DNA of 64,000 nt from Trichuris trichiura (taxonomy: Eukaryota; Nematoda; Enoplea; Trichinellida; Trichuridae): contig JBAJFE010000014.1 in NCBI GenBank assembly GCA_037903355.1, positions 1,674,001 to 1,738,000 on the forward strand, read 5' to 3'. The position numbers and the translations under genes are program-made. This document shows, one piece after another, positions 4,601-62,127 of the stretch. Each line of letters starts with the position of its first letter. Position 1 is the first letter of the stretch. The notes below the pieces were generated by a model, which saw only the letters and a list, made by a program, of their open reading frames with translations, was not told where the DNA came from and searched no databases.

Positions 4601-6924
4601 CGAAGTCGGGTCGGGCTTTTAACGCTTGAAAGCATTCTAGTGAGTTGCGATATCAAAGAACATTCCTATATTTATCCCTTTTGATGTCTTGGAGGAATTG
4701 CTAATTTTAATAGTCTTTTCAAATGAGCATTGCTGAGCCCATGTCACATTGCAAATTTTCCCGCTTTTGCAGGATGGACCGTCAGCATCCTTTTTGATGC
4801 GGCAATCGGTGGTTCATCTGTCTCGATTCGTGCGGGACGTTTGCGTAGGAACTTTAGAGAGAATAATTTCTGCTACCTTGGATGAAGGTATAGATTCTAG
4901 TCTTCGGTGATACAAAAACGGAAAACGAGTATATTTCTCAAAATTTTAGAACACTGTGTTCCACGAAACAAACTTCAATCTCGAAAAAGAAAAGAAATGA
5001 GAGACTATCGTTTCATGATGCATTGACCCTAAGTACCTATGACGGCTTGTGAACAACCATTCCCTGAAAAACTGTTTAGCTTTATTATTTGTCATATCGT
5101 TCACGCCCTACAGCCACAGCTGTATAATATGTCATGGTTGACAGACCACTTGTTATTCACGATTGATAATCACCTCTATCGAAAACTCAGCGCACGAGAA
5201 AGATCTTTAGAGAAAATAGATACCCGAAACAACTTACTGACTGTGTAGTGCATCGTATATCTTAAATTATTATTTTTTCCTCATTCCTTAACCAGATACA
5301 GTTCCAATTTAAGAGATATCTAAGGAAGTCATACAAAACCGTTTACAAACAGCACCACGGATGGTCACACGACACAAAACATTATTGTGGGTTTAGGAGA
5401 GGGGATAAAAAGAAGAAATAAGAAGACAACGCCCATCCTTGCCATCTTTCACAGTACGTAGGAAGAGGGCAAAATAGGATGCTAGAAAAAGAAAGAGCAG
5501 AAAAACGACATTTAAATAATACATTACAAAACGAAAAATTAACAAAAAAAATTTAAACGTCTCATTATGCTATCGTGGTCACATTTGCAACCGCCAACTG
5601 ATCTGCTGACGACGGGGTAACACGAATCCCGAAAACAGAGCATCTATTGGATAAAATTAATTTTTGTTAAAAACCAGATTTTCTTTGTAAAGAAATTTTC
5701 ACAGGAAAGCTATTGAACATTCTAAGCGTAAAATATTAGCCAGTCAATTTTGCAGACTCTCGACTGGCACTTAACTTGTAAAAAAAAGGCAAAAACCATT
5801 CTTGACTTAACTGGACCATTTAAGGGTTATTAACTTTCGTCTGCTGGACATCGAGCAAGACAACTTCAAGAAAAAGAAAGTTCAACGACACTCTTACAAT
5901 ACTAACCTATGAAATTGGCTGAGCCGCTTCTTGTTGAAAGGATCCCATATGTTAACCATGCCATCAGATCCTCCAGTTGCGAATGTACCGTGAACAGGAT
6001 GAAACGCAATGCATAGCACTGGATAAACTATTTCCTGCCCAGTTTCAGGATTCTTACTACGGTGGCATTTGAAAACATAACGCTGCTTTTGAACTTCGTA
6101 ATCGGGATCCAAAAACTCTACTGCTACTCGCCCTGGAAAACAAATCGTCCACAACCACTGAATGTAAAACCGTAGGCAATTGAGTTATAAGCCATACCCT
6201 CGATTGAAGATACTGCAAAGCCGAGTTCGTTCGGAAACGAGCGGAGACAACGTGTTTGAAACTTTAACGGCGATTCCCGCTGCTGCTCCGGGCCTGCATC
6301 CATGCTTCTGAGATCCCAAACCCATATCTTCCTTTCGGCAGTCGCAACTATCAGTCGATCGCCGCACGCGTCCATTGAGTAAACTCGCTGCGGTTGGTTG
6401 TAGCAGCCAACGCAACGACCCGCCCTCGGATCCCACAATTTGACCGTTTGATCCCAACTACCAGAGGCCATTAGGCCTAAATTCGGCAAATTGCTCAAGC
6501 AGCGAACTGGGCCTTCATGCGCACCCAAAATTGTTTCTAAAACCCAACGAAGTGTTGCGCTTGAAAGTGAATGGAAACTAACCAAAGCCCAGTTCCAAGT
6601 CGAAGTATTTAACAAAGGTATCTGAACCTGCGCTGCAGCAGTGACCACCGTCCTGAAAGCGATAGTTTGATTGGCGGAAATACAATCGCGCATACGCACC
6701 GTAAAAATGCAATCCAGTACTGGAGCTTCGTGCATAAAGGAAGTACGAACATAATTGGCTGATGAGCCGCTAAGCTCGTATAGCCTCACACAAGAATCCC
6801 ACGAGGATGCTAGGAGAAATTTCTCCGACTCTGGTGAAAAATGTACAGCAGTAACTCCGTCGGAGGGTGCGTTGTTCAACAGATGCTCATTCGGCGCGGC
6901 AACAATATGAGGTTCCGTAGCCAT
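1631..6924 (-). CDS. BUB3: BUB3 mitotic checkpoint WD40 protein
   Basis: Bub3 is a WD40 propeller that recruits BUB1 and BUBR1 to kinetochores in the spindle checkpoint. Five exons on the minus strand can be joined: 6924-6700, 6652-6583, 6536-6198, 6132-5907 and 1793-1631. Together they are 1023 nt, encoding 340 residues (human BUB3 is 328). All junctions are GT..AG and phase-consistent. Family landmarks are visible: SSWDSCVRLYE in repeat 1, GSWDQTVKLWDPR, VWDLR, the VSSIEGRVAVEFLDP strand, TFATGGSDGMVNIWDPFNKKRL, then after the long intron RYPTSVISMEFSHDGTYLAIA and a tail VRKVVDSETSVS. The first three introns are 47, 46 and 65 bp; the last is 4113 bp. The last exon lies so far away that a gene finder could end the gene at 5894, just past the donor. 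The start is the first Met of the open frame, before FSPESEKFLLASSW. Confidence 0.95.
3093..3882. mobile_element. Non-autonomous hAT-like DNA transposon
   Basis: Inverted ends both start CAGCCATTCTCAAA (3093-3106 on plus; 3882-3869 on minus). The CAG plus TTCTCAAA pattern is typical of hAT termini. The flanking octamers are GCATGGAC and GCATAGAT, matching at 6 of 8 positions, as expected for an aged 8-bp target duplication. The interior is GC-rich next to the ends (about 3110-3180 and 3780-3860) and has no recognisable transposase. It sits inside the BUB3 terminal intron and partly explains its size. Confidence 0.6.
5605..5637 (+). ncRNA. CTGACGA/GAAA stem-loop, copy A
   Basis: Reads CTGACGA, C, then GGGGT - AACACGA - ATCCC, then GAAA. 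The stem pairs fully with one G-T(U) wobble. It belongs to a family of copies in this window whose stems differ but remain paired. It resembles the CUGANGA/GAAA core of the hammerhead ribozyme apart from the extra C before the stem. It lies in the BUB3 intron near the donor site. No long repeat arm was recognised around this copy. Confidence 0.5.
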
Positions 6925-7261
6925 TTAAAGTCTTAAATCTTTAAAACTCCTTTTCCAAACTCGATTTCACCTCGGGAGTACAGTAGCCGATCGTGAAAGC
7001 AGGTTTCACTACAGTAGACCAAAAACATGTAGCGGCTTAATGAATCCGATCAATTCAGCGGGTTCCGAAATGTTTCCGAGAAAAAAACTAGATAATCGTT
7101 TTTGCCGTATTAATTTTAAGCAAGCATTATTTTCAAAAGCTTGACATTGTTTCACTTCTGAAGCAAGTAGTCAATACGCCTTAGAAATGAGTGCATCGTA
7201 CGGTTCTACTGTGCTGTTCCAGTTGGACTTGTTCGTAAGCTGCCTTCATTGAGAAACACGT
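6925..7261. other. BUB3 5' flank
   Basis: The region upstream of the BUB3 start. I see no coding exon or clear core promoter element; it probably contains the BUB3 promoter and 5' UTR. Confidence 0.35.
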
Positions 7262-7294
7262 AGCTTTCTGAAGCTTGCTCGCTCCGTCGTCAGC
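7262..7294 (-). ncRNA. CTGACGA/GAAA stem-loop, copy B (minus)
   Basis: On the minus strand this reads GCTGACGAC, then GGAGC - GAGCAA - GCTTC with a G-T wobble, then A-GAAAGCTACG. The stem sequence is unlike the other copies yet still pairs, and the constant flanks are kept. There is one extra A before GAAA. It lies between BUB3 and the Tigger element. Confidence 0.45.
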
Positions 7295-7493
7295 ATACGA
7301 CTATGTTGATGACCAAGCAAGCAACGTCCCGCAAGCTACATATTTCTCAATAAAGACAGCTTACAAACAGGACAGAGTGATTCTAGCAGCGCAGAATGAG
7401 ACAATGTAGTCCAATTCCAAAACTTTACCATGCAATGGTAAGGATTTTGTCTAATAGTTGTCTTTCCGTTTGAATATGCGCTTTTTGAATATA

Positions 7494-9790
7494 CAGTTGA
7501 ACCTCCGTAAGTTGAGCACCCAACAGACTGGGGAAAACTGGTTTGCATAGGGAGGCTATGGGTATAGGTGGCTCAGCTGAATAGATTAGTATCTGTACGC
7601 GTTTTATTTTGTTGCATAGCATCTATTGGACGTCTATTAAATGGCGAAATGCATAAAAATAACATTGTAAAATCATGCATAAGGCTTTTCAGGGGCTACA
7701 ACGCTTCCTGAAAACAGTGTCGATTCTAGTCTGCTGCTTGTTCTTACTACAAACAAAGGCGATAAGGGCGGCAACCGCGCTAGCTACCCCGCTGAGCATC
7801 TCTGAGCATTTTTCAGCAGAAAAACACTTCAGCAGCGCTAACATGCGCCCGGTGTCCTCTTCCTTCAGCTTTTGTACCATTTCCGTCTCATTGTCACTTT
7901 CGTTCTGTGTGTCGTCTCCCGCGCTACTTACTTCTACGCTCATTCCCGCTTCGGCTAGTATAGATTGGAAGATTGCTTGCGGGTCCGGTTCAGTAGAAGT
8001 GGCCACCTCATCATCTGTTCCAACGGAATCTTCGAAATCTACTGCTTCAATCTCTGCCTCGCGAGTCGGATTATCAAGCTGCAGCTCGAAATCATTCTCT
8101 TCGTCTCTGACAAATCCGGCACTCCTAAAGCATTTCCTTATTGCTTCCGGTTGAACCATATCCCAGGAGGAGCTGATCCAAAGCACAGCGTCCAAAGCAC
8201 TAATGGACGCAGCAATCGAAGTTGCTCCCACAGATGAGCTGGTGACTTCTGCTTTGCTGATGACCCATTGCAGAAGCTGAGTCCTGTATTTCGCTTTAAA
8301 TGTTTGAATTACTCCTTGATTTAGAGGCTGCGTTTTTGAGGAACTGTTTGGAGGCAGGAACTTTAACGTGACGTTCGTGAGGTGCCTCACGCGGGGATGG
8401 CTCGGGCAACTGTCTACTACCAATAAGATGGAACGTTTCAATCGCTTCATCTGTCGGTCAACACTTCTTACCCACTCCTCGAATATGGTGGCTGTTATCC
8501 AGGCGCATTTATTTGATCTCCAAGTGACAGGGAGGTCTTCAGGCTTCAAGTTCTTAAATGCGCGGGGTTTCGCTGAACTACCAATGACCAATGGCTTCAA
8601 CTTCTCCCCAGTTGCGCTAGCGCAAAGAAGCAAAGTGAATCGCTCTTTGGAGAGTTTCCCGCTTTTGCATTTGTCGCCTTTTAGTACAGGAGTTCTATCT
8701 GGCATAGCCTTGAAGAACAAGCCGCATTCATCAGCATTGAAAATGTCTTCTTCCTTGAAACCACTGGCGAAATGACGAAATTTCAAGATGAAGTCTTCCA
8801 AGACCTCGACGGGAACTTCGCTAGATTCGCCGCATAAGATTTTCTGAGAAATCTGATAGCGGAACTTAAACTTCTCGAGCCAACCGCTTGATGCTCGGAA
8901 ATCTGTCAACCCGAATTCCGCAGCGAATCTTCTAGCAACTTCCTGGATCATTGAGCCAGAGATCCGAGCATTAGCTGCTCTCATTTGCTCAAACCAACTT
9001 AACGCTGCTTCATTCACTTGGTCGAAGGAGGTTCTCCTTCTTTTTCGCCGCGTATCTCCGCTTTCCTTATCATATCTTTCCAAGTATTCACGTTTACGTC
9101 TTTGGATGTTGCTGACGGTAGTTTTGCTGACATGAAACCGTTCCGCTGTCTTCCTTTGGCTGTTGCTTTCGAGAAAGCGGATAACTTCCACTTTTTCCTT
9201 CAATGTCAACTCTCTCGATTCTTTCCGTTCGGCCATAGTGCAAATTGTAACCAGCTTGGTGGCTACTAATGCGTAAGCCGGTATATCTTTACTCGCGAAG
9301 ACACGTGAAGGCCACCTCCTGCACGGGTACTGCAAAGCAAATGAATAGAATTGAGCTCGACGCGAATGAATACAATTAGGATCGATTCGTCATATTTCGC
9401 CCCATGGGAGAATGCTGCCGACGCCCAAGGGGGTGGTTATGTAAACGAGGAAACGCGCAAGCTTTGCTGGCAAGCATGAAAAAGGCATCGTCAAGGCGAC
9501 GGAATCGGTTCTGTTCTCAGGAATTTCCAATGCACGGTAATGAAAAACTTCGCTACGTTGAATAATAGTACATTCAGACACTGCTGAAGACTGACACTGA
9601 GCAAACTGAAGTGGTCAATTTACAGAGAGCAAACTAGCATTGCGTCTATATACCACGTCACGGCTAAAGCGGTCAACTTTTCACTTACTCAGGTGATCAG
9701 TGTCTAGAGATTGTCCTTGCGATTATTTACGTACGGACTAACCAGCTAGTAAAAATTCGGTCAACTTAGAGAGGTGGTCAACTTTGACTG
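7494..9790 (-). mobile_element. Tigger/pogo (Tc1-mariner superfamily) transposon
   Basis: The left end CAGTTGAACCTCCGTAAGTT (from 7494) is preceded by TA. The right end, read inward on the minus strand from 9790, starts CAGTCAAAGTTGACC and continues with CTCTCTAAGTTGACC, so the two ends share CAGT...CTC..TAAGTTGA. The right flank is TC, not TA, so the right boundary is uncertain or mutated. The right subterminal zone holds several copies of GGTCAA-CTT-like motifs (near 9612, 9680, 9758, 9774), possible transposase-binding repeats. The interior encodes one intact transposase. Confidence 0.7.
7689..9236 (-). CDS. Tigger-like transposase with DDN catalytic triad
   Basis: An uninterrupted 515-codon frame from the Met before AERKESRELTLKEKVEVIRF; an upstream Met at 9335 adds 33 unlikely residues. 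Order of domains: CENP-B-type N-terminal helix-turn-helix (psq-like, KTAERFHVSKTTVSNIQ), second CENPB-type DNA-binding domain (SGSMIQEVARRFAAEFG...SGWLEKFKFRY), then the DDE_1 catalytic core and an acidic C-terminal tail. Counting from the 9335 Met, the first catalytic Asp is D202 in FNADECGLFFK and the second D308 in LLVVDSCPSHP. The third position in the usual PLDQG motif is Asn (N339, codon 8319-8321, AAT) in QPLNQG. It may be a recently dead transposase or a domesticated DNA-binding protein. An intact frame with an inactivated triad is unusual. Confidence 0.9.
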   Translation of the reverse strand: MAERKESRELTLKEKVEVIRFLESNSQRKTAERFHVSKTTVSNIQRRKREYLERYDKESGDTRRKRRRTSFDQVNEAALSWFEQMRAANARISGSMIQEVARRFAAEFGLTDFRASSGWLEKFKFRYQISQKILCGESSEVPVEVLEDFILKFRHFASGFKEEDIFNADECGLFFKAMPDRTPVLKGDKCKSGKLSKERFTLLLCASATGEKLKPLVIGSSAKPRAFKNLKPEDLPVTWRSNKCAWITATIFEEWVRSVDRQMKRLKRSILLVVDSCPSHPRVRHLTNVTLKFLPPNSSSKTQPLNQGVIQTFKAKYRTQLLQWVISKAEVTSSSVGATSIAASISALDAVLWISSSWDMVQPEAIRKCFRSAGFVRDEENDFELQLDNPTREAEIEAVDFEDSVGTDDEVATSTEPDPQAIFQSILAEAGMSVEVSSAGDDTQNESDNETEMVQKLKEEDTGRMLALLKCFSAEKCSEMLSGVASAVAALIAFVCSKNKQQTRIDTVFRKRCSP

Positions 9791-10175
9791 TCAGACGTTC
9801 TTCCGTCATACTGTAAGTTTGCCAGCCATTTTCTGCTGTCCTTCCCTGTGCTTAAGCTTAAAGATAAATCTTAAAAAAGTGTAGAACAAAATGACCGCCC
9901 CCCCTATATTCACCAGTAAGAGCAGAACGGGATGCTCGAAACGCTTGCCAGAAGGGAACCCGCATTTTCCAAAAGGTGGGGCGGCTAAAGGACAGAACTT
10001 CAATTTGGCTCCGCGGACTGCTCACAATGCATTACCTGGATGTCTTGTGTACTTGCAGCTTTAGTGGGCTAAGACTGGGATTACTCATCGTACTGCACTT
10101 GACTACCTTTGAATAAGTGTACTGTACTTGTTCTGGCCGAATAAAGGTTATTTCGTTCTACTAAATTGGCGACCT
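9791..10175 (+). mobile_element. Possible LTR end with primer-binding site
   Basis: The stretch begins TGTCAGACG beside the Tigger right end and runs to an AATAAA signal (about 10140) and a segment ending in TTCTACTAAA. It is followed by TTGGCGACCTG (about 10167), which resembles the TGG-initial primer-binding site after a 5' LTR. No matching second LTR was found. The broken pol at 57.8-59.5 kb could belong to such a family but this is not shown. Confidence 0.3.
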
Positions 10176-10360
10176 GTGAATGATCATTTCGCTAGGTGGC
10201 CAAAAGTAAAACCCGTACGCAGCACCGGTGCCGCGGCAGTCACTGCGCCTGCACTAGCTGCTGGACGAAGCCCCTGCTGATGACAACAGCACGAAGTTGT
10301 TGGCCCCATATGGCCTTAACTTAAGCCTACCCATATGACGATGTGACTATGGCCCCCTCC

Positions 10361-10640
10361 TGTTACGGAGCCGCACCCAGTTTGCAGATCATCCTGGTTG
10401 AGCTCGCTGTCCCTGTGCGCCATTGCTTCCTTGGACTATGGCCTTTCATAGGTCACTGTCCGTCCTCGGTCATTCACCTAAATAGGGAGCAACGGAGGTC
10501 TATATAAACGGCTGAGGCGGGAATGGTTTGGGTCGCCGAATTGGTCATGTTCCTGTCTTATCACTATCGCTGTTCTGTACCCTCCATACATACAAAGTTA
10601 ACCAGATTATTCTTTCTGTAAAAGACATAAATCTGTCGTA
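10361..10640 (+). mobile_element. Possible solo LTR-like promoter segment
   Basis: Starts TGTTACGGAGCC, a common start of Ty3-type LTRs, and contains TATATAAACGGC at about 10500 in LTR-like promoter position. Neither a target duplication nor a second copy was found in the window. The short open frame after the putative primer site (about 10207-10280) has Ala/Pro-rich content but soon stops. Confidence 0.25.
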
Positions 10641-12783: not shown

Positions 12784-14879
12784 ATGCCTCCGAAAAAGGG
12801 GAATCAGCCTAACAAAAAAACAGTAGAGAAGCAAAAGGAAAAAATTATAGAGGTATGTATAAACAAAATGTTTTTTATTGGACCTATTTTTTGCTCCGCC
12901 GAGTTCCACCGAAAATCGCATGACTTTAAAGCTATGATAAATTAGCACTGAGGGGTAGCTGAGTCAGGGAGTTTAGCATTTAACTTTATTTCAGGACAAA
13001 ACTTTTGGTCTGAAGAATAAAAAAGGAGCAAAGCAGCAGAAGTTCATAAAGATGGTTACCCACCAGGTGAAGAACCAAGGAGTTTCCATGTCAAAGGTTT
13101 GGCACTTCATTGTCATTCGGCAAAGTTAGGGCGATTTCACAAAGCAGCATATTATGACAAACAGGTGCTTTTGTTTGTGTCAAAGTTCACTTGTGGGGTC
13201 GTTTTCGATGCGTCCCATTATCTTGTTAAAACTGAATCTTTTACGATAAAACAGAAGCGGATTTTTGGAAGACTTGTTACAGATTGAGTCAGAAAAGAGG
13301 GAAAAGCTAAAGAAGAAGACGGATTTGGACGATCTGAATGCATTATTCAAGCCTGTTGTGAATAAAACTTTTGGTCTGAAGAGGTAAAAAAGGAGCAAAG
13401 CAGCAGAAGTTCATAAAGATGGTTACCCACCAGGTGAAGAACCAAGGAGTTTCCATGTCAAAGGTTTGGCACTTCATTGTCATTCGGCAAAGTTAGGGCG
13501 ATTTCACAAAGCAGCATATTATGACAAACAGGTGCTTTTGTTTGTGTCAAAGTTCACTTGTGGGGTCGTTTTCGATGCGTCCCATTATCTTGTTAAAACT
13601 GAATCTTTTACGATAAAACAGAAGCGGATTTTTGGAAGACTTGTTACAGATTGAGTCAGAAAAGAGGGAAAAGCTAAAGAAGAAGACGGATTTGGACGAT
13701 CTGAATGCATTATTCAAGCCTGTTGTGAATATGCCAAAAATATCGAAAGGTCCAATTACATATCAATGCTATTCGGAAGCAAACGCCCTCTTGTTTTAGA
13801 TGTGGATCCGAAGTCTGTACTGTGTCCCTTTTTTAAGCAGGGAGCTTGCAACAAAGGTGATAAGTGCAAGTTCAGTCACGACCTCTCCATAGATGGAAAA
13901 GCTGAAAAACGAAGCATCTATGTCGATCGAAGGGATATGCAAAGTACGCTTTTTATTTACGTCTTGCTGCTGCATGCATTGTTTGGTTTTAGACGATACT
14001 ATTGACAACTGGGATGAGGAAACGTTGAAGGAAGTTCTGAAAAAAAAGCACGGCGAAGCGGATAAAAATAAGAGTGCCACTACAATAGTAAACAAAGTTT
14101 TTTCTCTACGCGCTGATATGGTATTTCTTTATAGATTTGCAAGTTCTTCTTGCAAGCTTTAGAGGAAAGCAAGTACGGTTGGTTTTGGGAGTGTCCCAAT
14201 GGCGATAAGTGCATTTATAGGTTGTAAAAAATAATTCTTTTTATACTTTATAATACGTTCAAGCTTGTAGGCATGCGGTGCCTCCTGGATTTGTTTTAAA
14301 AAAAGACAGGATAAAGCCCGCTGAAAACAAGGAAGAGATCAGCTTGGAAGACCTTATAGAAAAGGAGCGCGCTGCCCTTGGAGACAATTTGACCAAAGTT
14401 ACCCTAGAAACATTTTTGAAATGGAAAGAGAGAAAACGTAAAGAATTGCTGAAACGCCGAGCCGAGGAGGAGAAGCGAAAACGCAACGAATATAAGTCAG
14501 GAAAAGATACCGGTTTAAGCGGACGAGAGCTGTTCACATACAATCCTGATCTTATGCGTCAGGATGACGAAGAAGCAGATGAAATGGAGTATGTGATTAA
14601 TAAAGAAAACGAAGAGGTTTGATCTGAAATTGTAATTGGAATCTCACAAACTTGTTTTAGGAGGACGTAAAAGCAGTGGATGTGTCTGAAGAGATGTTCT
14701 TAAAGGGTATAGGGATGGTTGGCGACATCGATGAGGAGCTGTTTAATCCGGACGATATGCCCGATGAAGACGTGGATGGAAATGGCTCGCTGCTCGAAAC
14801 TGGCGCTTCCGCTCAGCTTCCATCAGATTGTGACAAAAGCTTGTCTAATGACATAGAAAAATTAAATATGTCTAATTAA
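12784..14879 (+). CDS. ZC3H15: ZC3H15 / DFRP1 CCCH zinc-finger protein
   Basis: ZC3H15 (DFRP1) binds and stabilises the ribosome-associated GTPase DRG1. Exons: 12784-12852, 12995-13096, 13650-13749, 13800-13943, 13993-14087, 14135-14220, 14271-14616, 14661-14879; total 1161 nt, 386 residues, all GT..AG. The start MPPKKGNQ matches the family. Zinc finger 1 is C99-x7-C107-x5-C113-x3-H117 ([19 protein letters not shown]). Finger 2 is C172-x17-C190-x5-C196-x3-H200, with [15 protein letters not shown]. It is followed by [10 protein letters not shown], a Lys/Glu-rich helix and the DFRP region [14 protein letters not shown], then an acidic tail. A 366-bp tandem duplication covers the end of exon 2 through part of exon 3; this model skips the chimeric exon between the copies (13283-13463), which contains a stop. 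Confidence 0.93.
12998..13730 (+). repeat. 366-bp intragenic tandem duplication
   Basis: Copy 1 is 12998-13363 and copy 2 is 13364-13730. They appear identical except AAT at 13016-13018 versus AGGT at 13382-13385. Both breakpoints fall inside exons: the unit runs from exon 2 through the intron into exon 3. The exon between is a 3'/5' chimera with its own acceptor and donor. Confidence 0.95.
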
Positions 14880-16104: not shown

Positions 16105-19149
<3,045 letters not shown>

Positions 19150-20878
19150 CATTTTGCGTCGAAGCGCTGCTGCGGAAGAGCAGACGTTGCCTCAGTTTTC
19201 ATTCACTGGTTCACTTGCATTCTCTAGTCCTAAATACGTTTAAATTGTAAGAGTCGCTAAGTCAGCGTTAACTGCATTGAGGCCTACTGCTGCGTAATGC
19301 ACGCTCTCTGGCCTTTGTTCTGAGCTGATGATTTCTATTCATTGGCCATGCCAGAAAGGGTGCCTTGTTTTCCAAGCTTGTTGTCTGTTGCTGACTGTTC
19401 ACAATGCAGTTTGCGGTGAAAAGTGGTTAGGCAATTAAATGCTGATCTTTTTTAATCGATATCCTTCCTACTTGTGCACTTTTTTAAATCTTATTCTGCT
19501 TGATGCTTCGTGTATGTACAGTTCTGTCTCTTCAAATATTATTTTAATTTTTAAAAATAATGTTTTGCTAATTTTAAGCTCCTTGAAAAATTTTTGTATT
19601 GCTTAGAATCAATTTTTGAGTGATTCTTCAGTGTGACCTTAAGTTGGGCCCAATTGTGCGACGGTCAAAGAAGTATCAACCAGGCGGCCAAACTGAGTCA
19701 CCCCTAAAATGCAATGTTTAGAAAAAGTGTCATTGGTATAGTTTGCGAAAGTACGTTTGGCAGAGCGCTTATAAGCGCAACTTCAAATGCGCTGTTACAG
19801 TTGGTGTACTGGACATTCCAAGGCTTATTTTGACAAGAGCTAATTGTGCATCATTTGTTGATTATCATGTTTGCCCATCGAAACATAGCAGCTTTCTTTG
19901 CGTCAGCTTTTTTAATTATCTCTGAGAGCCTATTTATTCCTAGCGTTCAGCCGAACCGATGAACTGTTGATTGTTATTAAGCCACGTTAGAAGGAAAGAT
20001 GCGCAGAGTTTTTGGTTCAATTTCTGCTTTAAGTGTCATCAAGAAGTCATGTATAGGAGCCTTGATAGCTTTTATAGGGTCATTAGTACTTTGCTGTATG
20101 AAACTCGGTGTCTAGGAAACCGTGCTATTTCTATTTGAGCATTGAATTTGGTTAGCAAAGACGCTTCATGTTCTTCATGATGAAAATGCTTTGCTGCAGT
20201 TCTACAACTAGAAAGTTTACTACAGGTCCAAAGAAGCCTTTCTATCAAAGCAGAGCTCAAACGTATAAAGTTTTCAACATGAAGAAGCCGCACGTCCCTG
20301 TACTTCAAACTGGAGCCATCAACTCCCACGCATCCGGCTGACGAGGACCATAAAAAAGATGTCCCACTTTTGCGTAAAGTTTTCCGAACGGTTCACTTTT
20401 CTTGGAAGTGGATGCTTCTATCGTCCTATATTCAGTGAAAGAGTTATTGATTGAAAACTGGATTTCCGGTAGCAGAAGGCTATGTTTCCATGGGAGAACT
20501 ATGGTGCAGTCTGTTTAATGAGAAAAAAATAATGCGATGTTCGAAGCTTTCAGGACAACCTGATCCCATCTTCAGCGAAACTTGATAGTTGTATCAGGCT
20601 TGATAAGGGGACTGCAAAGGAAATTATGAATATTTTTCTTATGAAGTCACGACGTTTTTATACTGTTACGCACATATCCAGCTTTCAAGCGTTGTAGATT
20701 TAATCTATTCATTTTTTAGCGATTGGTTGCACTACAGAAGGCTTAACACAAGTCTGCATCGTGGATTGGAAATGCAGCTCCTCGCAGTGAGCGGATGATT
20801 GGAAGAAGTGGTTCAAATCGGCATAGTGTGATATTCTAAGACGACAGAAATATGACTGTAAATATGCAGTCGTAGCAG
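19150..20878. other. No gene recognised (ARL1 3' flank)
   Basis: AT-rich with scattered short frames only. I see no exon with family resemblance and no structural RNA. Confidence 0.4.
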
Positions 20879-20999: not shown

Positions 21000-21121
21000 G
21001 TTGGTAGAGTAGTTGTTTCGTTCAATTACAGGTACCAGCACAGACAAAATAAACGGGAAAAGCCGTAGAAGACCTTACAACTATGAAACAACAGCCCGTT
21101 ACGAAGCATCCTATTTTCAAG
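21000..21121 (+). mobile_element. 5'-truncated copy of the foldback repeat family
   Basis: Matches the right arm of the family from GTTGGTAGAG through ACGGGAAAAGCCGTAGAAGA, CTTACAAC and CCCGTTACGAAGCATCC to TTTTCAAG. It lacks the stem-loop part, so it is truncated on the left. It is bounded by the direct repeat AATAATAATT (20990-20999 and 21122-21131). A left truncation plus a short target duplication is the signature of target-primed reverse transcription, though this duplication is low-complexity. Confidence 0.6.
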
Positions 21122-21131
21122 AATAATAATT

Positions 21132-36700: not shown

Positions 36701-39700
36701 CAGTATGCGAAATACGCTTTCTTTCTTTAGTGAATCAAGGTGTTTTATTTGGGCTAATTAATTCATGAGTGTGTTATTACGCTCCCCTGTCAGCTGATGT
36801 TTTGACGTATTGCGCTAGACACGCCAAAAGTGACTGTCACGTTGAATTCAAGTACGCCGTTGAACGAGGGCGGTGCAGCTATTTTTCTCTGCCATGCTGA
36901 CGCAAAGCCTGATCAAAATCTTCGCTATCAGTGGCGTTTGAACCACAACGTCCTCCATGGTGCCGTGGAACCTAGTCTCAGCATTACCGAGTTGCAGTAC
37001 ATGCATCATCGAAGTGTGCTCAAGTGTGAAGTGTCGAACGCAATCGGCTCTGGCAGCGGCTCGTATTCCATATCACTTCATTGTAAATGAATTCAAATGC
37101 AAGAGTGCTGCTCTATATGCTATATGTTTGAACTTTTTGTAGATTCTCCTCGCCTGTCTCAAAAGGAATCGACAGTACAGACAGTTGACGAAGGACAAAC
37201 GGCAACGTTGCATTGCAATGTGGACGCCAATCCACCTCCGTCGGTTCGTTGGTTCAAAGCAGGTTCACCCCAAATCATCGCCAGAGGGTTAAAGTAATTA
37301 AGCTCTTTCGCTTTGGCATGTTATATTTTAGCGCAATATGTTTAAGCTTCACTATCATGAACGTGCGTCATGACCATCAGGGAGCCTACGTATGTGAAGC
37401 GCAGGTTGCAGGCTTCAGCCCGCAGAAGCTCACTACTATGTTGTTCATGAATGGTACTGCGAATGGAAAAATTTTTTCTTTTTATTTTTCTTGCTGTAAT
37501 CTATACTTTGCAGGTCCTCCACGAGTAAGCATAAATCCAGTAAAAGAAGCAATAGAAGGAAACACCGTTGAAATTGTCTGCGCTGTGTCTGGCTACCCAT
37601 TGCCAGAGACGATAAGCTGGTATAAAGGTGACGAACTAATTGACTTTGAAAATGGCCTCAACCGCTACGAGGTAAACAACCTTCAGAGGATTTTTTCCTT
37701 GATAGACTAAGCAGTATTAAGTAACGGGTGCTTTTTAATGGTTATCAGAAACATTTTTATTCTTTTTACGATTTTAAACTGTTGTAAATGACTTTGTTAT
37801 TCGCAGCTGTCAGGACTACTCTCATTCCGTCTTCAGCAGATAAATAATAATTGGAAGTGTTTCGTAAGGTTGACTGATAGGGCTAAAACCTGCTGTCAGT
37901 TCTCTAGAATTATAAGAGTGTGATACCATTGAACGGAAAGCCGAGGACTGGCTTTGAAAGCAAGTGTGAATATGCTGTTTAAGATACAGGCGAAACCGCT
38001 CGTTGCATAGATTTCAAGAGCATATGTCAGTCACTAGTCGCGATAAGGTAGCAGAAGCCGGATTAGAAGCCTGAGGGCTCTCAACTAGTTTAGCCTACTA
38101 CTATAATGAATAAATTGGTATGTGTTGTTCTTTATAATTTATAAAAGGTGAGAACACAGAGTTAGCAACAACTTTTACAGTCAAAAACGCTTCAAACTCT
38201 AGTTTATATTCCCAACGCTTCTGACTCTTTTTCACGCATTACGCGCTGTCAACCTGCCGTGAGACACTTATTATTGTTCTGCTGTACCCGGTATGGAAGT
38301 AGTCTTGAAGTTTATGGATAACGCAATTTGACTCTGCACTTCAACCCTAATTGTAAGTGTGCAGAAAGCTGTCTGAATCTCCAACAGCATTTTCACGGCA
38401 GTTGGATGTTCCAAGGACATGCGCGGCTTTCTTTCTCCCATAGCATTGCTGATTTTTTGACAAGCTGAAGTAGGTTACGCCCAACTGTCATGAGCGGTCT
38501 TTATGGAGAAAAATGTAGCTGTCAGTTGGTCCCTTGCTCGCACCGTTATCAGTATAGTGAACCTACTGGCTTTAACAGAGCAGAACGAGATTATGTTGTC
38601 CCGCTCAGAAACGTTGGGGTTCCAGCAGCTAACGAGAAGATTTTATTCACCGCTGTTTTCGTCTTCGTTTTAGAAGTCGAAAATTTTGAACAAAGGCGAT
38701 GGTGTTTTCAACGTATTGAAGATTATCAATGTCCATGGTTCAGATTTCGATATTTTTAACTGTACAGCATTCAACGAATATGGTAGCGGTTGGGCAGCGT
38801 CAAGTTTGATAGCCAGCGGTAAGCAGTGCGAGCTTTCTTCTGTTGACTTTATCTTTTGCCTTCAGACCCGATTCCGTTGCATGTTATGGTGCCTGGGGTT
38901 ATCGCTGGCTGCGTAGCTATTTTGGCTTTAGCTGCTGCCCTTTGCCTAGTCAATCGTAAATATTTATGCCGGTCAAAGTTGCCAAAGCATAGTAGCGGTG
39001 AGCAAAGTAAAGCTCAGATTACGTAACGCTATCATTCCGGTGGCGAATTTAGATGAACAAAGTGACGTAACCGTGAAGGTCGAGGCATTGGATGTTTTTG
39101 GGAGACCGTATCACTTCTATCCAGACTGTAATTTTGATTCAGCGCTTGACCAGAGTGATGTTGTTTTCAATAAGGTGAGCTCTACGAACACAAGGAATAA
39201 GTTTTCCAAGAGCCAGCGCATTGCAGGATTATATCTCAGTACCACAAGATAATCCAGATATGGACGCTTTGCCTCCTCCTTTTCCTGCTTACTACCAAGA
39301 GACGACAAGTACGTTTTCCAATGGACATTTGCCAAACGCCTCAAATACTGGGTCCAATATGACCATTCCTCCTAGCAATGGTCACTTCACTCATCTTGCT
39401 TATCTAAGTGACAGGTCATCCTCCAGTCCCCAAAATTCTGTAGATAATACCAATGGATCTTTTAATGGTGCGCCCATTCCTCTTCCAAATGGTTGCGTAC
39501 CCAGCGTCTCGATGCCATATCCGTTAGAAAGGTGCGCAACAGCCTATCGCCCTTACGGCTTGTACGGATATGAACCTGGGACATATCCTAACAGTATTTT
39601 ATCAGCTCCTCTGGAAACCGTAGTTGAAGTGCCAACCCCAGACACGGTGGACGAGCAAAGAAGGTCTACTTCGAGTCTGCTGCGCTGCTCGAGTCAAAAT

Positions 39701-43250: not shown

Positions 43251-43312
43251 GGTGTTCTCAGTCTAGCAATCGTTAATGCTGGGCTGGCAATTTAATGGTT
43301 TAGTGTTTTCCA

Positions 43313-43665
43313 GTTGTTCCTCTGGTTCACGGGTTTGCCCTGTTGGATGTATCTGTGAGTAAACTTCAAAATGCCCTAGCAACGGATGGATGAGCAAATT
43401 GTTAGAGAGATTACAGAACAATTCAACACCGTACGTTTCGGAACTGCTCGTGTTCCGTCGCCAGCAGTGTTGGGGAGTTAGCAACTGAAACGTGAGTTAG
43501 CTCCACAGCACTGCTGACGACGGAACACGAGCAGTTCCGAAACGTACGGTATTGAATTGTTCTGTAATTTCTCTAACAATTTGCTCATCCATTCGTTGGT
43601 AGGGCATTTTGAAGTTTACTTACAGATACATCCAACAGGCCAAGCCTGTGAACCAGAGGAACAAC
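43313..43665. mobile_element. Foldback repeat P1 with stem-loop in both arms
   Basis: Imperfect palindrome. The left arm from GTTGTTCCTCTGGTTCA (43313) is mirrored by TGAACCAGAGGAACAAC ending 43665, about 150-160 bp per arm with a short spacer centred near 43489. The right arm carries CTGACGA-C-GGAAC...GTTCC-GAAA (43513-43543). The left arm carries the same on minus (about 43440-43468) with CTGGCGA. The right outer flank continues with CCATGAAACAACC and ACACCCAGT, matching the family 3' end. It lies between tandem units 1 and 2. Confidence 0.8.
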
Positions 43666-43794
43666 CATGAAACAACCAAAGCCTGTTAAAAGACACCCAG
43701 TCTTTCGAGGTTAAGTGTTTGAAACAATGTTGAATTTAACGTAACTGTATGCGTCAGGCGACTGACAAATGAAACCCACTACTTTGTGGTTGGG

Positions 43795-47678: not shown

Positions 47679-47868
47679 CATATTGCATCTGTGAGTTGTA
47701 GCTCCTTTAAAGCTGGTTACAAAGCAGATTTTGCCTCGAAACAAAATTCATTTACTGCTTCTGTTGCTCCTCTTTATTGACTAATACCCTGCTATTGCTC
47801 AACGTAATATTTCGCAAGATAATTGGGTAAGTAAGGGAAGAAGATCATACATTACACAGATATTGACC

Positions 47869-47900
47869 GCTGACGACGGGTCGCGACAGACCCGAAAGCT
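47869..47900 (+). ncRNA. CTGACGA/GAAA stem-loop, copy C
   Basis: GCTGACGAC, then GGGTC - GCGACA - GACCC, then GAAAGCTC. Perfect five-pair stem with different bases from the GGAAC/GTTCC copies. Located 190 bp right of the dead Tigger; no palindrome arm recognised. Confidence 0.55.
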
Positions 47901-47999
47901 CTGGAAGTTCTTTATTCGCTTTTCCTTTTTTGTGGTTACCAACGGGACACAGCTACCGTAATAAAGACGCTGAACTAGTAAGGGAAGAATTCAAAATTT

Positions 48000-49654: not shown

Positions 49655-49803
49655 GGACGAACACCGCTTTATGCTAGTAGATTTATAAGATATTAATTAT
49701 GCAACGCGCAATGGTTTTATAGCCTCCGTACCAATGGTAGCTACATCTATGCTCGTAGGACAACTAAAAATGATTTTCTTATTGCTTTTGACAAGAATAC
49801 ACC
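49655..49803 (+). repeat. Source copy of the segment found inside element P3
   Basis: 149 bp starting GGACGAACACCGCTTTATG and ending GAATACACC are repeated at 50850-50998 with about half a dozen substitutions. Here the segment is flanked by ordinary sequence, so this is taken as the donor. Confidence 0.8.
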
Positions 49804-50076: not shown

Positions 50077-50428
50077 GAAAACTGGATGTTTTGTAACAGG
50101 TTGAATTTTCATGGTTGTAAGGTCTTCTACGGCTTTTCCCGTTTTTCGTTGTGCTGTTATCTGTAATTAAACTAAACAACTGCTCTACCAACGGATGGAT
50201 GAGCCGTTATTAAGAAAAGTACAGATATCAACGCACTCAACTTTTTATTGTTCAAAGCTTTCGGAACGCTCTAGTTCCGAAAGCTTTGAACAATAAAAAG
50301 TTGAGTGCGTTGATATCTGCACTTTTCTTAATAACGGCTCATCCATCCGTTGGTAGAGCAGTTGTTTAGTTTAATTACAGATAACAGCACAACGAAAAAC
50401 GGGAAAAGCCGTAGAAGACCTTACAACC
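50077..50428. mobile_element. Foldback repeat P2, near-perfect palindrome with TSD
   Basis: Arms 50113-50267 and 50274-50428 are near-perfect inverted copies (155 bp) around a six-base centre GCTCTA. Outside the left arm a 36-bp tail (50077-50112) matches the family 3' end in reverse. The whole is flanked by CAGTTTTGTTTTTT (50063-50076 and about 50428-50441), a 14-bp direct repeat. At the centre each arm has GGAAC/GTTCC and the GAAAGC side, but the CTGACGA block is missing. Confidence 0.85.
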
Positions 50429-50849
50429 AGTTTTGTTTTTTAGGCTAAGTGTAATTACTCTGCGCCTGGTTTGGTATATCACCTTCGTCCGTAGCGCGCT
50501 GTCGCCTATCAGCCAGTTGCTCACTGAAGACTGTCTGAATAGCTAGCATTCCAGACTAGCGGCAGCCTACTGCATGCAAATGTTAATCTGCATGAATCAC
50601 TTAGTAAACCACGAAAGCTCAACGATATGCTGTTAGTCTTTTAGACACTTTTAAAACTTGGTTGTAAGGTCTTCTACGGCTTTTCCCCTTTTTTCGTTGT
50701 GCTGTTATTTGTAATTAAACTAAAACAACTGCTCTGCCAACGGATGGATGAGCCGTTATTAAGAAAAAGTACAGATATCAACGCACTCAACTTTTTTAAT
50801 GTTCAAAGCTTTCGGAACGCTCTAGTTCCGTCGTCAGTGAGGTGGTGGA

Positions 50850-50998
50850 GGACGAACACCGCTTTATGCTAGTAGATTTATAAGATATTAATTATGCAAC
50901 GCGCAATGGTTTTATGGCCTCTGTACCAATGGTAGCTACATCTATGCTCGTAGGACAACTAAAAATGATTTCCATATTGCTTTTGACAAGGATACACC
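50850..50998 (+). repeat. Captured host segment in the loop of P3
   Basis: Copy of 49655-49803, about 1.2 kb away and in the same orientation, with scattered substitutions (for example TATAGCCTCCG became TATGGCCTCTG). It is followed by three CCTCACTGA-like short repeats up to the right arm. Confidence 0.85.
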
Positions 50999-51030
50999 CT
51001 CACTGACCCTCACTGAGCCTCCACCACCTC

Positions 51031-51062
51031 ACTGACGACGGAACTAGAGCGTTCCGAAAGCT
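51031..51062 (+). ncRNA. CTGACGA/GAAA stem-loop, copy D
   Basis: ACTGACGAC, then GGAAC - TAGAGC - GTTCC, then GAAAGCTTTG. A five-pair stem. It lies at the inner edge of the right arm of P3 and is mirrored in the left arm. Confidence 0.6.
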
Positions 51063-51268
51063 TTGAACACTAAAAGTTGAGTGCGTTGATATCTGTACTT
51101 TTTCTTAATAACGGCTCATCCATCCGTTGGCAGAGCAGTTGTTTTAGTTTAATTACAGATAACAGCACAACGAAAAAACGGGAAAAGCCGTAGAAGACCT
51201 TACAACCATGAAAATTCAACCCGTTACAAAACACCCAGTTTTCAAGAACTTTTGAAACTTAAAATAAT

Positions 51269-57200: not shown

Positions 57201-57755
57201 AGACGGGTTTTCTTGAGTCTTACACCTTCAGGTACAAGAGCACAAAGTGAATGTTGTGTTGATATGATGCTATGTGAAACTTGGTGAACAGTATAACAAC
57301 AATTTCTGAAGTTCACTATCTTCAACTCATCAACAGCCGGTGAAATTGCTTCAGAAGCGACTCAGCTATGCCGTTCCAAAGGTAACTTAATATTTTGAAC
57401 AGTTTCAATAGGATAATACCAGGAATGGCAAGAAGCAGCTGCGCACGGTTAATCCGTTCACAAGCAAGAGAAATTATATTGGACGTATTCAAAGATTGGC
57501 TTGGTAACTAAAAGATCGCACACGTTGACATTCTTGCAAAAGAAGAGTTCAGTCACCTCAGTGCCTTAGCAGAAAACGACTTTCAATTAGCACTAATCAA
57601 GAAAGATAGCTTCACGGGCAAATCACTTAATGTGCAGCTTTCAGTAGTCGAAGGCTAGGAATCATAGTTCCTCATGCGTTATGAACTTGTTGGTTCAATG
57701 CACCCTAATTAAAATTGTCTGATTGTTGCTCCATGACATCTCGTGAAATCTGTCC
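51269..57755. other. Gene-poor AT-rich block
   Basis: About 6.5 kb without a recognised gene. The longest frames are 51739-51951 (one hydrophobic stretch, AGLFCRCIPLIAVAIMAFF), the overlapping 51831-52286 frame and 54895-55128. None shows a family signature. No clear large repeat seen. Confidence 0.4.
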
Positions 57756-59530
57756 TCACATTGTGGCACATGTATTAGTAATAAAATAAGGTTTTATTAG
57801 TTGGGAATCTTCACAACTTTGTTGCACTTCGTCTTCCACGACAGAACCATTGACTTCAAGCACAACACCGATGGCCAACGAGCTAACATTTACCCAGACT
57901 CTAGCTTCATCACCTGAGACGCCCCATCTGCCTCGCACTAAGTCCGTTGCACTTCTCCTGGCGGCAACGTCCTTGAGGATCACTTTCAGTTCATCATCAT
58001 CGTCAACCGTCTCATCCCAGCTAACCGTGACGTCGTTGACCTTCCTTTTCATGAAAGCTGCCGCTTTTCTTAGCCAGCCACAGACGAGGAAGTGGGCAAC
58101 CAGCCTACCACAATAGGAGAATACTGATCGACGACTCAGTCGATATGGCAGCCCGCCGGCCACGTTGTCTCTGTTCCACACTAGTTGTCCGCGCTTCCCC
58201 CAGCTTCTTAGCCCAAAACTCAGGTACTGTCAGTGGCCTGCTCATGGGATTTGCAGGACAATCCGTAATGCGCAAAGTGTTGCTTCATGCGGCTGGTCGG
58301 TACGACATCTTCGTTCGCCGGAATATCATCGACAACCCGGTTAAGTGCTCAGTGTTATCGCAAGCAGGTGTTGCTCTTTCCATCTCTGAGTCTTGGTAAA
58401 GCACACAATCCAGCACAGCCTTCATTATCAATGGGGCCACGTTCAGACCGAAACCTAAGCGAGTAAGGCAGTACCTACGCTTTCTGAACATTACGGTTTG
58501 ATATGGCCACAAGGACTCGTCGACTCGGATCTTTAAGTATACTTTCTCTAGGTCGCATATGGATAAGTTCCTACCCAGCCGCCGAGTTTGTGATCGCACA
58601 CGTCAGAGTCCGCCGTGAACGTCACAGCATGGCCGTTTAACCCTCTAAAATCTACTACGGGTCAGACTTTCCCCTAGCTGCGCTGGATGACCGCTATAAG
58701 AGGAATCAGCCCCTTGGCGACTCCAAATTTACTTTCGTCATATGGTACTAGCCAGCCGTTCTCGATCCATTTATCTAATCCTTTTTCATGCGGGTCCCTG
58801 GCTCCATTAGCCAGCTTATACTCTTGAGTTCAGTTCCCGTAACGCTATATAGACGAATTCAGGACCATTCTGGGGTGAACGACTCGTTGGTCGGTAACCG
58901 GAAGCAGGATCACGCACCATTGAAGAAGTGACCTCACCAGCTAAACGCAGCCTCGATAGGGTCACATCTTTGGCTCTATAGAGAGGACAACCTCGACGCC
59001 AGGCAGTGTGAAGCATCATTCCGCCGCGCTCTGAGGGGCCCGGATCACTGGCCAGCATTGCCACACATTCATGCCCAGTTTGAAGTCGAACCAGAGAAGC
59101 TCTGTTTCCGCCAGAGTCGCTTTCACCTCGACCGGATTTCGACCAGCTAGCGGTAGACGGACGAAGCCAGTGCCTTCGCAGCGGAACTCCTTGCCATCCA
59201 TTTTGGTTAGGTTAATGCGTGCTCTTCTCCATCCCTCACGACATGAAGCGTGAGCGACGCATTTCGAGCAGCCCGTATCCACCAAAACGTCACGTTGCGC
59301 ACCTTCTACTCTCATCCGAACTGTTGGCAGCGCCTCACTCAGTGACTGCGGGGTAAGGAGGCTGACGCTGATTCCTCCACCCAATCCAGGTTTCCCTAGC
59401 GACGGGAAGTAAGTGAGTTGACCTTCTGGAACCGCTATTCCGCGCAGGATGCCGCAAGTCCTGTCCGTCATTTCTTTTACTGACTCTGTAATTCTGTCGG
59501 CGAGCTTCTCGCGACGGAGTTCTTGACAGT
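57756..59530 (-). pseudogene. Broken Ty3-like retrotransposon pol (protease, RT, RNase H-like)
   Basis: On the minus strand in pol order: a retropepsin domain (59471-59016) with DVLVDTGCSKC, active Asp codon at 59277-59279; a degraded linker (59064-58816); reverse transcriptase (58599-58285) with SICDLEKVYLKIRVDESLWP and YCLTRLGFGLNVAP; then the tether/RNase H-like region (58181-57756) with LSRRSVFSYCGRLVAHF, GRWGVSGDEARVWVNVSS and GVVLEVNG. The YxDD counterpart (VVDD, about 58325-58336) falls in a different frame from the preceding RT, so there are frameshifts. No integrase, gag zinc knuckle or LTR was found next to it; the open frame upstream (KLADRITESVKEM) extends to about 59530. It is dead. 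Confidence 0.85.
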
Positions 59531-61903
59531 TGATCTCAGGATGTTACTTTCAGTAAAAGATAAGTAACTTTTTTGGTAGTAATAAAAGGTGGAAGTGACT
59601 GGCGCAGAGGACAGTAAAATGATTGACTGCAATTGTATGCTAACGACGGAATCACACCGTTATCAGGGCCCCACTATTGTTTTATGCACTTTCTTCTCTT
59701 TTATCATTGCTGGTAGAATACCTCTTTCCTTTTTGAAGGTGTTTTTCTGGCATCAACAATCAAAACATGGATAAATCCACGCAGGAAAAGTCATGAAAAT
59801 AGCTCTGCTGTCAGTGCAATTTTCGTTACTCGTTGAGACTCCTCCATACTGTAACGAAACCTTTTCTCATTGCTGATAATCGACATTTTTCGTAATTAAT
59901 GCGTAAGCCTAATTTTAAGACGCATTAAAAACTGTGCAGGCAGTCACCAGTAAGAAAATTTAGCACTATACCATCTTGCAGCAGCTAGTCTTCAAAGCAT
60001 TCTTACGGATGGTGGTATAACCATATTAGATGCACGGCAGGTTAACCATATCCAAGAAAACTTTTACAGAAGCCCCAAAAAACATTTACAAGTAACTGTA
60101 ATGCTTGATCAGAATTAATGACATATTTATTGGCATATCTATTATTAATATGACATATCTATTATTAATACATATTTTATTCTCACGATGCATTTCGTTC
60201 CAAGCGAACCATCCTAAGTCAAAATGCCTAATCAATGCATTTGGCGCTGGACTTGACCGCGGTAGCGGCGGTTTGCTAGTGCTAGTCTCCTCATTGATCT
60301 CCATTGGCCATACATCGGTTCAATGCCATCCTTGCTACATTTTTAGATTTAGGTCTATGCTAAGATGAAGCTGAACTGCACTGCACTGAACAGGTTTCAG
60401 CATGGACAAGGCGGACTGCCACCGTGAGAGATCCTCGAGGAGAAATGGATATGACGAACTGTAATGAACCTGCTGTGACACGCTCATAAGAGAAAGGAGT
60501 TTGCTGAAGACCAGCACAACGAAAACTGAACGAAGTTGTGCCAGCAATCAACCAAAGCCTGCTCCAGCCGTCTTATTTCCCTTATCTTGACGAGGCACCG
60601 GGCGCCAAGAAATACTGGATGATTTTATCTGCAGCATTAGATAGGCTGGTGAGTTCACAACCAAATATAGACCTTGAGCCTCAGCCGCCTAACCGTCGTA
60701 TGCTGCAAGTTTGCCGTGTTTTTCTTTGAAAAAGTACCTCTTTGAAACAGAATGGCTGTATTCTATAGAGAATGTACATCTTTGTTGTGTGGTTATATCC
60801 TGGTTTTTGGAATAAGGAAACCTTCCGGAGCTTTCGCATTCAGCGGCAGCCCTATTCAGCGAATAATTAAAAAGAATGATGAAACGTATGAATACATAAG
60901 CTTCCATTATTGCAAGTCTATGATTAAAAAAGACAAATCATGCGGTACCTGCTAATAACAGTCCATTTGAAACTGTGCGTTGTTCCTTTCCTTTCGCATC
61001 ACAGTTTCTGCGTAGTCATCAATCTGCTATTGGTTTACAATATTTAGATATGCCGGTTACAATCGAAGCGACCAATTAAGCATACCATTACTCAATGAAA
61101 TATCATCCCAACGGCTGAGCACATAATCAGATGCATTAAATCTAGTCAAGGAGGCAAGACGAGAGAACGCACGCTGCAATAACAAATTAAAACTAGCAAT
61201 TTACAGGGAAAAATGGCCATAAAAATCTTGTATTAATAAATTTACTCCATAACGCTAAAGATGCTACAGAAAGTATGAAGCGTTTTTATATTTAGTTAAT
61301 TTTCTGTAATTTCAAGAAACAATACGCCGTCATTCTTCCTCGCGGACAAATGCAGAAAGTCAATAATGCGTATATTCCAGCTGCTTTGGTGAGGGTTGAA
61401 TACTCCGTATAATACTACTGTCTCCCTGTCGAAACTGAAGTTAGCAAAAATGTCACAATAAAACAGGAATTAAACAAACACGACAAAAACTAAGGCGTAA
61501 AAACATGCAGCTGGATCTGGCTGTGACCGATGAATTTGAAAGTGTAAAGTATTAAAGTCTTTGAGTGACCAAGGGAAAAGTCGAGTGACTTGTGCCTAGA
61601 AATTTGGATGATTTATACCTCCGCTGTGCTATTAATAAGTATTTGAACAAGCCATTTTTAGGCAAAAAATTGCAGGCATTAATACATGATATTCTGCCGC
61701 CATTGCTCAGCGCCGCAAACGAATTGATTCGATCAACTGAATTATACGAAACACTATAACTATTTCCGAACATGCACCCACACAGATTTAAGGCTAATGC
61801 TTAAATAATATTGTTGCCTCCTTTCAGGTTTATATCTATTATTCCTGTTTTGTTAAGTTAATAAGTGATAAGAAGACGGGGTGCTTCTTAACGGAGCAAT
61901 GGA
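59531..61903. other. No gene recognised
   Basis: Short unrelated frames only. A small imperfect tandem repeat of CATATCTATTATTAATA occurs at about 60128-60172. Confidence 0.4.
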
Positions 61904-62127
61904 TTTTCATCACTTCTTTATACGGTATGTTTTCTTGCCCAATTACCACCATCGCTGACGACGGGACAAGGTTAGTCCTGAAAGCTACGAAACTGTTAAG
62001 TGTTTCTGTTGTTCTGTATTTTTCCTTAATAATTGCTCATCCATCCGTTGGTAGGGCTTTTGCTTCGGTTTAATTCCAGAAACCATCAACGGGCAAGAAA
62101 ACATACCGTATAAAGAAGTGATGAAAA
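61904..62127 (+). mobile_element. Foldback-family copy with 37-bp inverted ends and stem-loop
   Basis: A perfect 37-bp inverted repeat (61904-61940 and 62091-62127) encloses a right-arm-like body. It holds GCTGACGAC-GGGAC-AAGGTTA-GTCCT-GAAAGCTACG (61953-61989) and GCTCATCCATCCGTTGGTAG (62035-62054). Compared with P2/P3 the left arm is reduced to its outer 37 bp, so the inversion is asymmetric. The outer ends differ in sequence from P2/P3, as in a diverged subfamily. Confidence 0.75.

Follow-up and report, generated by a model that had tools for sequence, protein, structure and literature searches.

Hammerhead ribozymes without stem III have been described in Penelope elements, where they act as dimers (Cervera & De la Pena 2014; Lunse, Weinberg & Breaker 2017, as cited in PMC6155905, PMC7761336 and PMC6466107, to the extent of the accessible text of these papers). 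According to the accessible text of PMC6466107, such a dimer depends on tandem motifs and on a palindrome in the loop of stem III. The tertiary contact between loop I and loop II is absent in the Penelope type. A further known system is Poseidon of Anolis (PAc), an endonuclease-bearing (EN+) Penelope element with a hammerhead at the start of the pLTR/ORF. In the accessible part of PMC11167929, the catalytic mutants of PAc were without effect on insertion in vitro, the cleavage needed added protein, and no RNA-seq reads had either end at the presumed cut site.

The hammerhead motif of Trichuris trichiura described here shares the type I order, the pLTR location, the tandem motifs and the missing helix III with the minimal type I hammerheads of Penelope elements, as far as these are presented in the papers citing them. 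It differs from the published examples, compared via the same citing papers, in a single extra base between A9 and stem II, usually C, and in a loopless stem III of the sequence AGCU or ACGU. Such ribozymes are already known; the difference is the extra, strongly kept C in the catalytic core. The placement of the motif at the pLTR/ORF start of an EN+ element is shared with PAc. A pLTR holding the first 12 codons, a TATA box, inverted head-to-head pLTRs and junction palindromes are shared with the Penelope elements of Adineta vaga, as described in the accessible text of PMC3846280, a paper in which the word hammerhead has 0 occurrences. Searched by title and abstract, the open-access literature returned nothing on such hammerheads in nematode Penelope elements or in Trichuris. 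The combination of Trichuris with hammerhead ribozyme led to another enzyme only, and that of Trichuris with Penelope retrotransposon to telomerase only.

Copies of the motif in the window

The window is the whole analysed stretch of 64,000 nucleotides (contig JBAJFE010000014.1, positions 1,674,001 to 1,738,000). A sequence-only reading had reported in it the pattern CTGACGA-C-stem-GAAA at six loci or more. All six are present with the stems quoted there, and the motif is far more abundant than that, with 11 places in the window and 3,552 pattern matches genome-wide. The coordinates require a small shift: the plus-strand copies start one base later, at 5606, 43514, 47870, 51032 and 61955, and the first C of the minus-strand copy lies at 7293 rather than 7294, with one extra A before its GAAA. 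The loops are indeed variable, although they measure 6–7 nt and not 5–7 nt. The covariance model R1 was built from 42 copies, the window copies among them, as that reading had suggested, and it places 11 motifs in the window at E<=0.01. Five of them are additional to the named six: 50798-50845 (-), 43424-43472 (-), 20536-20583 (-), 37796-37844 (-) and the partial 50255-50279 (-). The bare CTGACGA is not enriched in the window, with 9 occurrences vs 5.66 expected, a number reached by 10 of 100 shuffles.

A pLTR copy of subfamily C occupies 61942..62125 (+); aligned to the L021 reference (91%), it starts at -13 relative to the ribozyme core. Its hammerhead motif at 61947..61995 (+), which belongs to the R1 training set, scores 60.0 bits (E 8.3e-14). 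The parts of this motif follow one another as the 5′ strand of stem I (TCG, 61952-61954), CTGACGA (61955-61961), the inserted C (61962), stem II (GGGAC 61963-61967 with GTCCT 61975-61979), GAAA (61980-61983) and GCTA (61984-61987), with predicted cleavage after 61987 and the 3′ strand of stem I (CGA) at 61988-61990. A subfamily A2 copy at 51018..51208 (+) starts 14 nt before the core and carries a motif at 51024..51071 (+; 55.7 bits). Here, CTGACGA lies at 51032-51038, the C at 51039, stem II at 51040-51044/51051-51055, GAAA at 51056-51059 and GCTT at 51060-51063; cleavage is predicted after 51063, and stem I joins TCA (51029-51031) with TGA (51064-51066). By alignment, a second A2 copy at 50659..50852 (-) stands head-to-head with it and holds a motif at 50798..50845 (-; 57.4 bits). 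The same arrangement is found in subfamily B: the copy at 43501..43675 (+), starting 13 nt before the core, bears a motif with the ACGU palindrome and a GUA cleavage triplet at 43506..43554 (+; 54.0 bits), and its head-to-head neighbour, identified by alignment at 43312..43477 (-), bears a motif with CTGGCGAC at 43424-43472 (-; 44.8 bits).

Another subfamily is represented at 47862..47909 (+; 54.8 bits). The motif at 20536..20583 (-; 44.8 bits) is of the CTGAAGA type, and T replaces its inserted C. Two copies, each at 33.1 bits, are decayed: that at 5598..5646 (+) keeps the core and stem II and has ACAG after GAAA, not GCTH, and that at 7253..7299 (-) has the extra A before GAAA and keeps GCTA. 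The copy at 37796..37844 (-), with CTGAAGAC ... GACAGCTG, is weak (26.1 bits, E 2.1e-4), and a 3′ fragment of the pLTR at 21000..21121 (+), found by alignment, is without the ribozyme.

Several other repeats were observed in the window. Positions 50112..50432 form a near-perfect palindrome with 99% complementary arms, composed of two 5′-truncated pLTR copies, 50112-50279 (-) and 50274-50432 (+). Its centre is the stem II hairpin of the ribozyme, as if reverse transcription had turned back at that hairpin; a partial motif lies at 50255-50279 (-). A 149-nt direct repeat (49655-49803 and 50850-50998, 97% alike), whose second copy lies between two head-to-head pLTRs, may represent an unusually long target duplication or a flank that was captured. 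At 12998-13731, a 367-bp unit is present in two tandem copies, 99% alike.

Abundance in the genome

In the 72.7-Mb genome, the core with the inserted C, CTGANGA-C-GG..CC-GAAA (CTGANGACGG-N9-17-CCGAAA), has 1,785 + 1,767 = 3,552 matches vs 1 + 1 for the reversed control. The pattern CTGACGAC-N-GAAA has 1,014 + 1,011 matches vs 117 + 113 reversed, and CTGAAGAC with GGG..CCC has 610 + 593 vs 0 in the control. The type CTGA(T/G)GAC with GG..CCGAAAGC amounts to 474 + 486 matches vs 0. By these counts, position seven of the core is unconstrained, like the N in the CUGANGA of hammerheads. Of 87 places listed for R1, 72 pass E<=0.01; they come from 25 sources, among them the copies used to train the model. 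In a further 23 loci, of which 3 stem from the Hammerhead_1 search and 20 from the RVT_1 search (78,840 nt), no match reached E<=0.01, the best E being 0.19. Separately, eight matches of a motif without the inserted base were seen at C61 26062-103345 (-), seven of them spaced by ~7-8 kb in the manner of a long tandem array.

Anatomy of the predicted ribozyme

The anatomy was read from 53 copies, 43 of them distinct, collected by a script from the window and the fetched loci. The script demanded CTGANGA, GAAA and a paired stem II (the first three pairs, and >=4/5), and left the flanks before CTGANGA and after GAAA free. The pairing percentage of stem II, GAAA and most of the core are therefore partly given by the fetch pattern and the script. 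Stem I, the NUH site and the variation of N7 lie outside the fetch patterns and the script filter, with the reservation that the fetch pattern favoured C at N7. In the distinct copies, N7 is C in 27, A in 9, T in 6 and G in 1, so that CUGANGA with a free N7 is followed by stem II and GAAA, as in a type I hammerhead.

The tetranucleotide after GAAA is GCTC in 16 of the 43 distinct copies, GCTT in 10, CGTA in 9, GCTA in 4 and another in 4. A NUH triplet (CUC, CUU, CUA or GUA) is thus present in 39/43 copies, G17 in 0/43, and A15.1/U16.1 is held in 40/42 alignment rows, which is the NUH site with the A15.1-U16.1 pair of a type I hammerhead. Neither a clear stem III nor a NUH site had been recognised in the sequence-only reading; both are found, stem III being a two-base palindromic, loopless helix. 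It consists of the palindrome AGCU or ACGU (A15.1-G15.2-C16.2-U16.1 or A-C-G-U). Since it has no loop, it cannot pair inside one motif, and two motifs can share four pairs. Genome-wide, the motif is followed by GCT in 2,877 cases and by CGT in 359 (controls 0), together ~91% of the 3,552, with a gap range of 9-16 in these counts and of 9-17 in the total. The swap between GCT and CGT flips the pair G15.2-C16.2 into C15.2-G16.2.

Stem I is formed by three pairs between the triplet before CUGANGA and the triplet after the predicted cleavage site. Its first position is paired in 41/43 copies (shuffle mean 34.3) and its third in 38/43 (21.9). The second, a nearly invariant C-G, is paired in 38/43, with no excess over the shuffle mean of 38.2. 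Beyond the triplets, position 4 shows no excess in the 43 copies (17 vs 15.3 shuffled) and position 5 is paired less than in shuffles; position 6 is weakly above them (22 vs 14.7, as high in 22/2,000 shuffles). Stem II has five pairs. The reduced, palindromic helix III and the presence of the motif in both pLTRs are the features of the Penelope type.

Covariation and folding

The alignment A1 has 42 rows. It takes up the distinct copies, omits two of these 43 (L014 4048+, a duplicate over the stretch, and L028 3918-, whose homology stops at the core) and adds the window copy 7293-. The copy L028 3918- was kept in the 43-copy anatomy and in the scan of 400 column pairs described below. The earlier statement that the bases of the stem change yet stay paired holds for A1, in which columns 19, 20 and 21 are double-changed in 19, 15 and 4 of 42 rows, pairing itself being an entry condition of the script.

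In stem I of A1, 92.9% of cells are paired vs 74.0% shuffled, 30 cells are changed on both sides vs 8.1, and the covariation is 0.682 vs 0.301+-0.031, with slid partners at <=0.198. For each of the three measures, pairing, double-change cells and covariation, 0/500 shuffles were as high. Stem I thus closes the core on the CUGANGA and the cleavage-site sides, as in type I. Two counts for this stem in A1 are not above the shuffles, namely pairs with a double change (2 vs 1.9) and pair types (6 vs 6.1). Taken jointly, stem I, stem II and the palindrome are 95.0% paired (77.7 shuffled), with 75 double-changed cells (20.6) and a covariation of 0.550 (0.217); in this set, 6 pairs show a double change vs 4.8 shuffled, a count reached by 96/500 shuffles. 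Such shuffles leave the relatedness of the copies in; for the scan, the 39 copies that carry GCT or CGT were therefore reduced to 21 families. Of 400 upstream-downstream column pairs, -3/+3 is the best, with 19/21 families Watson-Crick vs 7.0 expected (z 6.1; next 3.2). The scan revealed no further stem I pairs and no other contact standing out.

RNAalifold recovers the same stems I and II. In the dimer folds computed with ViennaRNA for 39 copies, the four stem III pairs all form in 4, the six stem I pairs all form in 9, and the full double hammerhead in 0. A type III topology, in which the upstream TTCGGAG would pair with CTCTGA, appeared by eye to covary in subfamilies A, B, C and D and was dropped: this helix is no better than chance, with a score >=5.5 in 14% of shuffles, and cross-family pairs score equally.

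The inserted base of the core

Every copy had been said to carry an extra C. The C is real and present in 41/43 distinct copies; it is not universal. Genome-wide, the insertion site holds C in 3,552 matches, A, G or T in 365 (control 4) and no base in 44 (control 1), the last overlapping partly with the 365 where the base is G. The canonical type I core has no insertion between A9 and stem II, and the motif departs from it at this point. In the accessible part of Eckert et al. (PMC10085705), the known hammerhead alignments have insertions of <=1-2 nucleotides between CUGAnGA and the adjacent stems, and the natural insertions named in the accessible part of Perreault et al. (PMC3088659) follow A6, fall within GAAA (13a) or lie near C3, with none named after A9. 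The novelty of an insertion between A9 and stem II is unproven. Across the lineage, the core is modified by this inserted C, a departure from the canonical form that could weaken the core. A search for the extra C in other animals, among contaminant Penelope contigs in GTDB, gave 15 pattern matches and no relative.

The host element

In L019, an RT frame of Penelope type and a GIY-YIG stretch precede the motif on its own strand, an assignment confirmed by the Pfam and database matches of relatives. By tblastn, an RT (E below 1e-14) and GIY-YIG were found on one strand in L019, L020, L021, L026, L027, L052, L053, L054 and L055. In all nine (9/9), the motif is found on the same strand, 289-751 nt downstream of the endonuclease match, that of L020 being weak (25.9 bits, E 2.4e-4). 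Five of these loci were fetched for holding the motif, and L052-L055 for the RT alone, from a search in which 150 of 1,558 first-look candidates were scored and listed; all of the latter (4/4) carry the motif. In L052 and L055, second RT copies sit at the end of the locus. Downstream of the weak RT fragments of L015, L028 and the window, there is no motif on the same strand. The RT identity to L019 ranges from about 40 to 97%.

The most complete arrangement is that of L052, where, in minus-strand coordinates, a pLTR (1935-2225), a frame of 913 aa (2025-4763) and a second pLTR (4803-5091) follow each other. The two pLTRs are 95.9% alike over a 291-nt alignment, with one motif in each; two direct pLTRs were seen in this locus only. 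Pfam finds RVT_1 in 4/4 proteins and GIY-YIG in 1/4, and the RT and GIY-YIG lie in one ORF between pLTRs, as in an EN+ Penelope element. The best database matches of the element protein are from Trichuris muris and T. suis (57%, <=59% identity among the top rows). The repeat which could not be named from the window is the pLTR of this Penelope-like element. The ORF of PAc begins at stem II, according to the accessible text on that element, whereas the first ATG of the L052 frame comes ~180 nt after the core. The pLTR copies often end at ~+154..+181 or ~+212..+219 from the core (L019, L052 and L054 vs most shorter copies); these two end points resemble the optional Penelope "tail", and the reference itself stops at +219.

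5′ ends and a proposed cycle

The 5′ ends were taken from alignments of 47 pLTR copies to five references, which themselves count among the 47; many of the copies form head-to-head pairs and are not independent (e.g., four in L023). The start falls at -17..-11 from the core in 17 of the 47 and within 2 nt of the cleavage site in 1; another 11 extend farther upstream, and the other 18 have their starts elsewhere. A TATA box lies ~30 nt before the common start. It begins at -43 to -45 in L013, L019, L021, L052 and L054 and is readable likewise in L026 and L053; in L027, none is readable at that place. The simplest reading is that the common start, ~13 nt before the core, is the transcription start. 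A template cut at the 5′ ribozyme would produce starts at +32/+33, and the few starts at the cleavage site suggest that the copied RNA was uncut. Such uncut 5′ ends agree with the PAc results given in the accessible part of PMC11167929.

In the proposed cycle, transcription would begin about 13 nt upstream of the core, with the TATA box some 30 nt farther upstream. The palindromes of two motifs, from the two pLTRs of one transcript or from two transcripts, would pair with each other in one common stem III of 4 bp; stem I would then form between the partners, and each strand would be cut after CUH or GUA. The uncut RNA would be the reverse-transcribed form, and the cleavage would represent a side branch serving release, trimming or regulation, and no required step of copying.

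Identity of the motif and alternative readings

The motif is interpreted as a minimal type I hammerhead in the pLTRs of endonuclease-bearing Penelope-like retroelements. The first suggestion of a hammerhead-like RNA in a nematode repeat gains support from the free N7, the covariation of stem I, A15.1/U16.1 and the pLTR location, and the identity as a Penelope-type hammerhead is very probable. Judged from sequence, cleavage as a dimer is somewhat favoured, and the full explanation, with dimer pairing and an uncut template, is the probable one. The Rfam hammerhead models gave no hit at gathering score in the window, and two copies tested against Rfam at E<=10 had no hammerhead match. In the genome search with Hammerhead_1, 73 of 12,095 first-look candidates were scored, and the 3 that matched all stayed under the cut-off; the highest-scoring one (C21, 26.7 bits) reads TTGACGA, lacks a GAAA behind stem II and was judged a chance match. 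The insertion in the core and the absent stem III may explain the failure of Rfam.

An unlikely alternative retains the hammerhead fold without catalysis: the extra C would have killed cleavage, and the stems would be kept for RT binding or template recognition. The insertion carried by the core fits this, as do copy starts upstream of the cleavage site, by which the copied RNA was uncut. However, the NUH triplet is kept in nearly all copies and G17 occurs in none, and A15.1/U16.1 and the palindrome persist across families, which a binding hairpin would not obviously need. A related and equally doubtful model is that of a self-locked lineage, in which the C (9a) would pair with the catalytic G12, lengthen stem II and hold the ribozyme off until release by a second copy or by the element's protein, so that full-length RNA survives for copying. 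RNAalifold does pair the inserted C with G12, and C-G is found in 40/42 rows; because C (9a) and G12 hardly vary, covariation gives no test of this pair. The survival of full-length RNA is what the uncut 5′ ends suggest.

It is highly improbable that the motif marks a non-autonomous, retrozyme-like unit instead of the pLTR of an autonomous element. Most of the 47 aligned copies are pLTR-sized, with upstream element sequence in 11, but all loci fetched for the RT alone have the motif after their own ORF, and the L052 pLTR ends 13 codons into the ORF. Scarcely credible, finally, is the fold proposed earlier as an alternative, a structured hairpin with GCU/AGC around an internal loop and no ribozyme, which appears in 4 of 12 dimer-fold structures inspected but has no compensatory changes, fails at its outer pair in 17/42 rows and at the next in 8/42, and leaves the free N7, the stem I covariation and the AGCU/ACGU swap unexplained.

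Significance

The minimal hammerhead proposed for the Trichuris pLTRs is missed by the present Rfam models in the copies tested here. The element family poses the question of whether the inserted base tunes the cleavage and whether the uncut RNA is the template. With >3,500 motif matches, RTs differing up to about 60%, a kept insertion and readable 5′ ends, this question is testable.
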